DNA of 64,000 bases from Bacillota bacterium (GTDB lineage: Bacteria > Bacillota > Sulfobacillia > JAJZYS01 > JAJYTV01): assembly GCA_021793645.1 (NCBI GenBank), contig JAJYSJ010000012.1, forward strand, positions 1 to 64,000, read 5' to 3'. The first letter of the stretch is position 1. Each line of letters opens with the position of its first letter. The notes beneath the pieces were generated by a model that was given only the letters and a program-made list of their open reading frames with translations, ran no database searches and had not been told where the DNA came from. The translations under genes and the position numbers were made by a program. Below, one piece after another: positions 48,077 to 62,796 of the stretch.

Positions 48077-48153
48077 TGGTGGGCGATGAGGGACTCGAAC
48101 CCCCGACCTCATGCATGTCAAGCATGCGCTCTAACCAACTGAGCTAACCGCCC
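48077..48153 (-). tRNA. tRNA-Val (anticodon GAC)
   Basis: A 77-nt cloverleaf with encoded CCA: acceptor GGGCGGT/ATCGCCC, D stem GCTC/GAGC, anticodon stem CATGC/GCATG around TTGACAT (anticodon GAC), and T arm GGGGG-TTCGAGT-CCCTC. It is the last gene of the array on the minus strand, nine bases after tRNA-Cys. Confidence 0.95.
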
Positions 48154-48161
48154 GAAACCTG

Positions 48162-48235
48162 TGGAGGCGACGCCCGGATTCGAACCGGGGGTAAAGGATT
48201 TGCAGTCCTCTGCCTTACCACTTGGCTACGTCGCC
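48162..48235 (-). tRNA. tRNA-Cys (anticodon GCA), complete copy at island end
   Basis: A 74-nt cloverleaf with CCA: acceptor GGCGACG/CGTCGCC, anticodon stem AGGA/TCCT around CTGCAAA (anticodon GCA), T arm CCCGG-TTCGAAT-CCGGG. Its 5' half and anticodon loop (48199-48235) are repeated exactly at 57428-57464, next to the remaining tRNA array. The complete gene therefore seems to be regenerated by an element that inserted at the anticodon loop. That separates it from the array's promoter at 57.8 kb, so it must now be expressed from island sequence. Confidence 0.95.
48193..48235. repeat. Left attachment repeat within intact tRNA-Cys
   Basis: The sequence matches 57422-57464 in the same orientation, with 37 exact bases at its right and one mismatch before a further run of matches. 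It covers the anticodon loop and 5' half of the tRNA, a normal crossover site for tyrosine integrases. Confidence 0.8.
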
Positions 48236-56972: not shown

Positions 56973-57427
56973 GCCGCCTGCTTCGACAGCTTGCCGGTTG
57001 CCTCCTTGGTAATCTCTTCCAGATTAAGCGTCTGACCGGAAAAACATAGGTTTCATGAACAGCCCCGGGCTACGGGGCGGTGACGGATGGCGGGATCCGC
57101 GGGGTTGGGTCCCACCCGGAGCAGGACACTACCTCCTGTCCTTTGCCCTCCTACATCTCACCCCCGCACTTCCTCGAATATAGCCCGACAATCCGTAGGA
57201 AAAGGGGCAATGGTCAGGACCAACGCCCCCGTGCAAAGGAAACACCGGTCCTGACGACAATTCCATGAATGCCTACAGCGCACTTGGGCGTGCGAAACCC
57301 TCCATGGAAGTCCATGCGCTCGTGCATGCAAATCTGCATGCAAATCCAATTCACAACACAAACGAAAAACCCGCAACCCTTGCGGGAAGCGGGTTTCGAG
57401 CAGTGGCGACGTCTAAAGGGAAAAGGC
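56973..57427. other. Right island end without a supported gene
   Basis: The segment contains the TGCATGCA repeat (57309-57347) and a short inverted repeat aacccgc/gcgggtt near 57367-57395, followed by the partial tRNA-Cys. No ORF is credible. Confidence 0.45.
57309..57347. repeat. TGCATGCA-type repeat, right copy
   Basis: It matches 48571-48609 in the same orientation at 35 of 39 positions. It lies about 80 bases inside the right attachment repeat; the left copy is about 335 bases inside the left one. Confidence 0.65.
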
Positions 57428-57464
57428 TTTGCAGTCCTCTGCCTTACCACTTGGCTACGTCGCC
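57422..57464. repeat. Right attachment repeat: orphan 5' half of tRNA-Cys
   Basis: The 37 bases at 57428-57464 are identical to the 5' half and anticodon loop of the intact tRNA-Cys, but the 3' half is missing and replaced by island sequence. It lies four bases from tRNA-Gly, where the original tRNA-Cys would have stood in the array. Confidence 0.85.
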
Positions 57465-57468
57465 GAAT

Positions 57469-57543
57469 TGGAGCGGAAGACGGGATTCGAACCCGCGACC
57501 TTCGCCTTGGCAAGGCGATGCTCTACCACTGAGCCACTTCCGC
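57469..57543 (-). tRNA. tRNA-Gly (anticodon GCC)
   Basis: 75-nt cloverleaf with CCA: acceptor GCGGAAG/CTTCCGC, anticodon stem TCGCC/GGCGA around TTGCCAA (anticodon GCC), T arm CGGG-TTCGAAT-CCCG. Four bases separate it from the next tRNA. Confidence 0.95.
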
Positions 57544-57547
57544 AACA

Positions 57548-57623
<76 letters not shown>

Positions 57624-57632
57624 CTAACTTAC

Positions 57633-57708
57633 TGGCGGAGGCGACGGGAATCGAACCCGCGATCTTGTGCGTGACAGGCACATATGTTAACCACTACACC
57701 ACGCCTCC
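57633..57708 (-). tRNA. tRNA-Asp (anticodon GTC)
   Basis: 76-nt cloverleaf with CCA: acceptor GGAGGCG/CGCCTCC, anticodon stem TGTGC/GCACA around CTGTCAC (anticodon GTC), T arm GCGGG-TTCGATT-CCCGT. Confidence 0.95.
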
Positions 57709-57718
57709 GAAACTTCTC

Positions 57719-57793
57719 TGGTGGGCGAAACAAGGCTCGAACCTGTGACCCCCTCCTTGTAAGGGAGGTGCTCTACCACTGAGCTATTCGCCC
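57719..57793 (-). tRNA. tRNA-Val (anticodon TAC)
   Basis: 75-nt cloverleaf with CCA: acceptor GGGCGAA/TTCGCCC, anticodon stem CCTCC/GGAGG around CTTACAA (anticodon TAC). It is the first gene of the array after the promoter. Together with tRNA-Val(GAC) the array holds two valine isoacceptors. Confidence 0.95.
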
Positions 57794-59889: not shown

Positions 59890-60030
59890 TCAGTCGATGT
59901 TGTCGTACGGGCAACCGATGCGGCACGCGCCGCATTCGAGGCACCCCTCGTAGCGAACCGCGGGGCCCTCTTCGACGCCCTCCCACTCGTACACGTTGCA
60001 GGGCGGAACGTCAGGCAGCTCCGAACTCAT
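59890..60030 (-). CDS. FixX-like mini-ferredoxin or truncated remnant
   Basis: A 46-codon ORF. The product reads PPCNVYEWEGVEEGPAVRYE and then GCLECGACRIGCPYDNID at the end, with a complete CxxCxxCxxxCP 4Fe-4S motif. FixX proteins (about 95 residues, partners of FixABC or ETF-quinone oxidoreductase) show the same segments, but have an extra N-terminal half and a further C-terminal YPRGGFG stretch, both absent here. It is therefore either a short single-cluster ferredoxin or a relic. No fixABC genes are nearby. An ATG at 60045 would lengthen it by five residues. Confidence 0.55.
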   Translation of the reverse strand: MSSELPDVPPCNVYEWEGVEEGPAVRYEGCLECGACRIGCPYDNID

Positions 60031-60311: not shown

Positions 60312-61343
60312 CTAGCGGACAATCAGGTGACGCGCGCCGAGGCTGCGAACCGTCCCGATTCGGCGCGGCCGCATCTCCGTTCGGGCCAGGTTTTCGAAGA
60401 GCCCAGCGCGCTGCGGGTCCAGCGCGACCAATAGGCCGCCGGAGGTGACTGCATCGGACAGCAGGAGGCGCTGCGCCATAGAGAGGTCTTCCCCGAACGC
60501 GACGTCTTCTTCGACGTACGCTAGGTTGTCCCGGCTGCCGCTGGGAACGCGGTCCTGCAACACCAGCTCGATCGCTCCAGGATGTACCGGGACAGAAGAG
60601 AAGTGGATCTCAAGTGTCACACCGCTTTGCAGCGCCATCTCTCGCGCATGCCCAAGGAGACCGAAGCCCGTCACGTCGGTGACGGCGTGGGCGCCGCCCG
60701 CCGCACGCACCGCATCCGCTGCAGCGCGATTGAGTTCCTTCATCGCGTCGATCGCGGATCTGGCGCTCTCGGGATCGCAGTTCCCATCCTTGATGGCCTT
60801 GACGATCACACCGGTGCCGATGGGCTTCGTCAGATAGAGCGCATCGCCCGGCTGCGCGCCGTCCTTGCGCCAGATCTCATCCGGCCTTGCCGTACCCGTC
60901 ACAGAGAGGCCGAACTTTGGCTCCTTGTCCTTCACCGTGTGTCCGCCGAGCAGCACGGCCCCGCTTTCGCGCACTTTGTCCAGTCCACCCGCGAGGATCG
61001 CTGCCAGGGTGTCCTCGCCATACAGTTCCGGGTCGAACGCCACGAGGTTCAGCACGGTGCGTGGCACTCCGCCCATGGCGTAGATATCGGATAGTGCATT
61101 CGCTGCCGCGACCTGACCGAAGGTGAACGCGTCATCGACGACAGGTGTGAAGAAGTCCACCGTCTGTAAAATAGCGAGATCCGGGGCGATCAGGTAGGCG
61201 CCTGCGTCATCGCGTGCTCCGAGCAGCAAGCGTTCGTCCGCAAAGTGGAGGTCGAGCTTGGAAAGCGCGTGATCCAGCTCCGCTGGACCCAGTTTGCAGC
61301 CTCAGCCAGAGGCAGAGGAAAGGGTCGTGAGACGCTCAAACAC
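60312..61343 (-). CDS. selD: Selenophosphate synthetase containing selenocysteine
   Basis: SelD makes selenophosphate from selenide and ATP, the donor for SelA. Reading from GTG 61343 (GGAGGG five bases upstream) gives the usual N-terminus with an in-frame TGA at 61304-61302: codons S-A-S-G-UGA-G-C-K-L-G-P-A-E-L, where the catalytic Sec or Cys sits in all SelD proteins. The reading then continues for 343 residues in total, including FTPVVDDAFTFGQVAAANALSDIYAMGG, LLGGHTV and TDVTGFGLLGHA. ORF callers that stop at UGA would report only the last 305 residues. A SECIS-like hairpin follows the UGA. It is downstream of selA by 67 bases. Confidence 0.93.
61272..61304 (-). promoter_or_regulatory. Bacterial SECIS-like element after the selD UGA
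   Basis: After the UGA (61304-61302) the mRNA forms GUCCAG-CGGAG-CUGGAU (61288-61272), six base pairs with a five-base loop containing G residues. The apical loop lies about 20 bases after the UGA, inside the normal window for SelB-dependent recoding elements. Confidence 0.75.
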
Positions 61344-61410
61344 GCTGCTCCCTCCTCTCCGCCCGTGCGCGGGCTACGAGGAACAATCTAGCACCGCCCG
61401 CGCAAGTGCG

Positions 61411-62796
61411 CTAGCCTTCCTCTGGCCGCGCGGCCCATGCGGTGGCGACGGCCCGCGCCAGCGCATCCTCTTGGTGCGCAAGCACCGTGCGCACATCCAG
61501 CACCAGTCGGTCCTCCTCGATGCGCCCGATCACCGGCGGGTCGCCGAGCCGCATGCGGTGATGCAGGTCGTCTGGCGAGTCGTGCGCAAGCGCCACTCCG
61601 TAGGAGGGGAGCGGCGACTCGGGGAGGGCACCGCCACCAGCTCGCCCGTAGAGTGGAACGAGCGCACTGTCAACTCCGAGCCCGCGCAGCCTGCGGCGCA
61701 GCGCCTGGGCGCGGCGGCGCAGTGCATGCGGCTGTGCCGCCAGCATCGCATAGACCGGCACCGCCATCTCCTCACCGCGCAGGTAGAGCCGCACGGTCTC
61801 CGCAAGTGCCGCTACCGTCATCTTGTCGGGCCGCAGCGCACGGTAGAGAGGCGCTTTGCGCAGGCGTTCGACGAGGTCGCGCCGTCCGAGGATGATGCCG
61901 GCCTGGGGCCCGCCCACGAGCTTGTCGCCGCTCATCGTCAACAGATCGGCACCGCTCTCGAGAACGCTTCCCACGGTCGGCTCGTCACCGACGGGCAAGA
62001 GCGCCCCGGAGCCCAGGTCTTCAAGGAAGAGCACGCCTGCTGCCCGCGCCGCCTTGGCGAGTTCGTCGCCGTTGACTCGCGCCGTAAAGCCGATCTGGCG
62101 GAAGTTCGACGGGTGCACGCGCAGGAGGGCTGCCGTCTCTGGACCCACCGCCTCCACATAGTCGCGCAGGTGGGTGCGGTTCGTAGTACCCACTTCGCGC
62201 AAGAGCGCCCCGCTCTCCGCCATGACATCGGGAATGCGAAAGGATCCGCCGATCTCTACGAGTTCGCCGCGCGACAGCACGACCTCCCGTCCTCGCGCCA
62301 GCGTCGCAAGGACGAGGAACACCGCGGCTGCGTTGTTGTTCACGACAAGCGCGCTCTCGGCCCCCGTCAGGCGGCATAGCAGCGGTTCCAGGTGGTCTTG
62401 GCGGCTGCCGCGCCGCCCTTCCTCCAGGTCGAACTCGAGGTCGACATAGCGCGCCGCGGCGTCCGCGGCCGCCTGCGCAGCCGTCCGCGCCAGCGGGGCG
62501 CGCCCAAGGTTCGTGTGTACGACGACCCCTGTAGCGTTGATCACGCCGCGCAACGCTGGTCGGCTGAGCCATCCAAGCCCTTCGCGTGCGCTCTTCGCCA
62601 GCGCAGAGGGGTCCGCCAGCTCCGCGGCCACCGCCTCACCCGCCTGCAGGCGTCGGCGCAGTCCCTCCAGCTCCGCCCGCAGCGCGTCGTGCACGAGGGC
62701 CTGCGGATATTCCGCAAGCAGGGCCTGCACCTCGGGGTGCTGCAGTACCCGATGCAGCGCAGGCAGGTCCCGCAATCGCAGTGAAGCCAACGTCAT
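61411..62796 (-). CDS. selA: L-seryl-tRNA(Sec) selenium transferase
   Basis: A PLP enzyme of 461 residues that converts Ser-tRNA(Sec) to Sec-tRNA(Sec) using selenophosphate. The protein shows RGVINATGVVVHTNLGRAPL, the active-site lysine in TMSGDKLVGGPQAG, and RLVLDVRTV near the end. GGGAGGAA precedes the ATG, which overlaps the deacetylase stop by four bases. Together with selD it forms the selenocysteine biosynthesis part; selB and selC are not in the window. Confidence 0.95.
   Translation of the reverse strand: MTLASLRLRDLPALHRVLQHPEVQALLAEYPQALVHDALRAELEGLRRRLQAGEAVAAELADPSALAKSAREGLGWLSRPALRGVINATGVVVHTNLGRAPLARTAAQAAADAAARYVDLEFDLEEGRRGSRQDHLEPLLCRLTGAESALVVNNNAAAVFLVLATLARGREVVLSRGELVEIGGSFRIPDVMAESGALLREVGTTNRTHLRDYVEAVGPETAALLRVHPSNFRQIGFTARVNGDELAKAARAAGVLFLEDLGSGALLPVGDEPTVGSVLESGADLLTMSGDKLVGGPQAGIILGRRDLVERLRKAPLYRALRPDKMTVAALAETVRLYLRGEEMAVPVYAMLAAQPHALRRRAQALRRRLRGLGVDSALVPLYGRAGGGALPESPLPSYGVALAHDSPDDLHHRMRLGDPPVIGRIEEDRLVLDVRTVLAHQEDALARAVATAWAARPEEG

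Follow-up and report, generated by a model that had tools for sequence, protein, structure and literature searches.

Our combined findings indicate, with very high confidence, that the selD gene in the window (the whole 64,000-nucleotide stretch of Bacillota DNA analyzed here) encodes a selenocysteine-containing selenide, water dikinase (selenophosphate synthetase, Sec-SelD), likely within a selA-selD operon, and that its codon 14, a UGA, would be decoded as selenocysteine (Sec) with the help of SelB and a hairpin just downstream. This arrangement is well known and was found in most of the relatives sampled, and is thus real but ordinary. The coordinates of the features are collected in the table.

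Features of the selD region and of the second selenoprotein gene (positions are those of the window, except for the last line).
Feature	Position	Strand	Remarks
selD, selenide, water dikinase (selenophosphate synthetase)	60312..61343	minus	343 codons, GTG start, predicted Sec at codon 14
In-frame UGA at the catalytic position, almost certainly read as Sec	61302..61304	minus	selD codon 14
SECIS-like hairpin GGUCCAGC-GGA-GCUGGAUC	61271..61289	minus	8 bp
Ribosome-binding site GGAGGG	61350..61355	minus	6-nt spacer to GTG
selA, L-seryl-tRNA(Sec) selenium transferase	61411..62796	minus	TIGR00474, 535.8 bits (cut-off 267.9); PF03841
Formate dehydrogenase (FDH) region (L048, L095)	G000:C25:57610-63459		UGA at the Sec site of the catalytic subunit

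The UGA is the sole stop inside the selD frame, which is otherwise open to the terminal stop at 60312-60314, and we consider that it is almost certainly read as selenocysteine. Read through, the protein scored 356.8 bits against TIGR00476 (cut-off 125), with residues 4-312 lying on positions 1-310 of the 311 in the model, so that it exceeds the curated equivalog cut-off along its full length and is a member of this family. It could also be aligned over residues 6-320 to the SelD structures 2yye and 2zod. In this alignment the UGA residue falls opposite the cysteine of the catalytic loop, and the residues that follow it are GCKLGPAEL; the preliminary description, made from the sequence alone, had thus placed the codon and read its flank correctly. 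At the Sec/Cys position of the catalytic site, the gene therefore has a UGA in frame, as is characteristic of Sec-containing SelD. The viral contigs, when searched with SelD, yielded no relative.

The same description had pointed to a good ribosome-binding site and start ahead of the UGA, which we recognize in the GGAGGG motif and the GTG at 61343-61341, and had warned that automatic annotation would lose 38 residues. The table-11 open reading frame listing indeed begins selD at TTG 61229, 38 codons late. Translation from this codon, which would give a SelD-like protein that lacks Sec, is exceedingly improbable: TTG 61229 is the start given by purely mechanical calling, whereas it is GTG 61343 that is preceded by the good ribosome site, and the residues between the two codons are conserved in relatives. 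Moreover, the upstream start is itself retained in relatives: L051-L053 share the start region, which in L051 is identical to that of the window (GGAGGGAGCAGC-GTG) and in L052 has ATG as the start codon. A corrected annotation would restore the catalytic residue that is otherwise dropped. Directly upstream on the same strand, 67 bp away, lies selA, and the two genes are likely co-transcribed as an operon.

The UGA is conserved well beyond the window. TGA stands at the same selD codon in three assemblies of related Bacillota with 83-85% protein identity (L051-L053), in which the flanking protein sequence is also conserved, and in a genome of the same order (L018). In a 299-genome sample of the phylum, nearly all of the strong SelD matches listed had exactly one internal stop, a TGA, and the loci whose full sequence was read have it at the same motif position; one same-phylum copy (L046) has a cysteine codon instead. 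Judged from these sequences, a UGA that both coincides with the catalytic residue and is conserved is far beyond chance. These observations bear on a different explanation, that the codon is truly a cysteine codon (TGC or TGT) altered by a sequencing error or a recent mutation, or that selD is a pseudogene. In its favour, TGA differs from either cysteine codon by a single base, and the genome is a multi-contig assembly. Nonetheless, a sequencing error or a pseudogene is excluded in practice because the UGA recurs in relatives, including the three independent assemblies, the same-order genome and nearly all of the phylum matches listed, and decay of the gene is further opposed by a frame that is otherwise open; we regard this explanation as having next to no probability.

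Decoding of UGA as selenocysteine by the mechanism proposed here involves SelB and tRNA-Sec, and the absence of their genes, selB and selC, from a complete genome had been named in advance as the observation that would count against a Sec-SelD. Both were found, as had been predicted. SelB is encoded in the same genome (TIGR00475, 305.6 bits, cut-off 242.25) and has the SelB wing-3 and beta-barrel domains (PF09107, PF25461); the full SelB model was matched, although the wing-2 family PF09106 had no match in the genome. A tRNA-Sec of 92 bases was found as well (RF01852, 69.3 bits, gathering threshold 47), and ARAGORN calls it a tRNA-SeC with the anticodon TCA (UCA). SelA, SelB and a tRNA-Sec with a UCA anticodon, which make up the Sec-decoding trait, are thus each present, with selB, selC and the formate dehydrogenase gene on contigs other than that of selD in this 94-contig assembly. 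In a chosen set of genomes, 30 in number, SelB and tRNA-Sec accompanied SelD in all 16 that have it, including one (G108) whose best SelD copy has a cysteine codon, while both were missing from each of the 14 that lack a full SelD. SelB and SelC are described as signatures in the evolution of selenium traits (PMC1273633).

Other selenoproteins had also been anticipated, and a second one was identified in the catalytic subunit of a formate dehydrogenase of the same genome, in which a UGA lies in the context SCNRT-U-HAPSVAG. By the FdhF/FdhA motif, this is the selenocysteine site of the enzyme. The UGA is followed by a GCAGGUCUUGC hairpin (CGUCGCA-GGUCU-UGCGACG) with a GGUCU-type loop. This uncultured lineage therefore very probably decodes UGA as selenocysteine and has at least two selenoproteins. 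The subunit is without the usual N-terminal Fe4S4 domain, and the Molybdop_Fe4S4 domain (PF04879) was found as the C-terminus of a separate 283-residue NuoG/HoxU-like protein downstream. A HesB-like selenoprotein was considered as a further candidate and rejected, as the one HesB-like match in the genome has no internal stop.

We turn now to the hairpin, in which 61289-61282 pairs with 61278-61271 around a GGA loop (61281-61279). Counted from the UGA, the stem starts at 12 nt and the apical loop at 20 nt, about the distance that the preliminary description had given. A bacterial SECIS occurs in Sec-SelD genes (PMC4561486). The bacterial SECIS (bSECIS) model (PMC13188914) calls for an upper stem of 4-16 bp and an apical loop of 3-9 nt that has a G in its first two positions and lies 16-37 nt after the UGA; it has an energy constraint as well. 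The selD hairpin agrees with the four constraints compared (loop size, stem length, loop G and distance). Its minimum free energy (MFE) was not significant, either against shuffled sequences of the region (z = -1.06) or against synonymous recodings, a fraction of 0.55 of which fold as well, and the region had only chance matches below the cut-offs to miRNA, sRNA and snoRNA families in Rfam. A SECIS-specific stem test, chosen after the MFE tests came out non-significant, scored synonymous recodings for their best stem, the loop having to be G-led and to lie 16-37 nt from the UGA. It gave p = 0.0175 for the window and p = 0.0095-0.0205 for L018 and L051-L053. Median p was 0.024 in the UGA set, which includes the same-phylum cysteine-codon copy L046 and also L033, whose uncertain frame matches led us to omit it from pair counts, versus 0.45 in the Cys set; since the latter comes from other phyla, mostly of lower G+C, this comparison is supportive rather than clean. 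All 8 pairs are kept in four close species, L051-L053 each among those keeping them. The stem changes in the window's own group are one-sided only, with no two-sided compensatory change seen, which leaves the hairpin's role as the SelB-binding SECIS likely rather than demonstrated. The SECIS-like hairpin of the preliminary description is therefore present and fits the model, but is weaker than that account implied and unproven as a SECIS.

Relatives of this selD (L019-L045) have SECIS-like hairpins in two positions, with the loop either 17-20 or 33 nt after the UGA. The 33-nt hairpin, around GCAG-GUY-CUGC, keeps all of its pairs in 12 of 12 sequences and has several two-sided changes, while the 17-nt hairpin, GGUCC-GGM-GGACC, has a double change from G-C to A-U. 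As sequences were sorted into classes by their hairpins, the percentages of pairing are in part a product of the sorting, which does not apply to the double changes. Both positions are occupied in a few sequences, among them L023 and L026. The window's group is without the 33-nt hairpin and has a form of the 17-nt one displaced by one codon, so that its loop lies at 20 nt versus 17 or 33 nt in the other sampled relatives. Could selenocysteine be inserted under the direction of a structure other than the hairpin at 61271-61289? The non-significant MFE, the lack of two-sided covariation in the window's group and the strongly covarying 33-nt hairpin of many relatives, missing in this group, all speak for such an arrangement. 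We nevertheless find it rather unlikely, given that the hairpin fits the bSECIS model in the four constraints compared, is kept in the four close species, passes the synonymous test and resembles the 17-nt hairpin with its double change. The SECIS of selD may have moved in this lineage, a scenario that we consider possible but doubtful: the 33-nt covarying hairpin of many relatives, class-level ones included, would have been lost, and SelB would have to use the 20-nt GGA-loop hairpin. The formate dehydrogenase gene of this genome keeps the GCAGGUCUUGC-type loop, and one SelB would then recognize two different loop types.

In the mechanism that we propose, ribosomes would start at GTG 61343 and reach the UGA at codon 14, where SelB carrying Sec-tRNA(Sec), bound to the GGA-loop hairpin, would insert selenocysteine. 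Located on the flexible loop at the SelD N-terminus, this residue would handle selenide while the enzyme makes selenophosphate from ATP. Selenophosphate would feed SelA, and SelD would therefore be needed for its own full-length synthesis.

PMC1794560 names SelD as one of the two selenoproteins most widespread in bacteria and gives Symbiobacterium, Moorella and Carboxydothermus as examples. The Sec-SelD proteins of these bacteria (TIGR00476; Symbiobacterium thermophilum, Moorella and Carboxydothermus, PMC1794560) are like that of the window in the N-terminal UGA at the Sec/Cys position, the downstream bSECIS-type hairpin, the presence of selA, selB and tRNA-Sec in the genome, and FdhA as a second selenoprotein; beyond the species being a different one and the hairpin loop lying at 20 nt, there is no essential difference. 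Cys-SelD proteins (for example L063, L071-L090, Sulfurimonas and Bacteroidota loci) belong to the same enzyme family and have the motif C-G-C-K, but their genes carry a cysteine codon where the window has UGA, and all but a few lack a significant G-loop hairpin. Our findings thus introduce no new principle, SelD having long been known as a selenoprotein that depends on itself.

Elsewhere in the window, two clusters of tRNA genes (Val, Cys at 48077-48235; Gly, Phe, Asp, Val at 57404-57793) lie about 9 kb apart, and the stretch between them may be an inserted island. The match at 57404-57464 is weak, shortened and tRNA-like, and ARAGORN makes no call there. Closer to selD, the minus strand at 59893-60027 encodes a 45-residue cysteine-rich, ferredoxin-like protein, with weak Fer4 matches below the cut-off, that resembles the end of a FixX-type ferredoxin.
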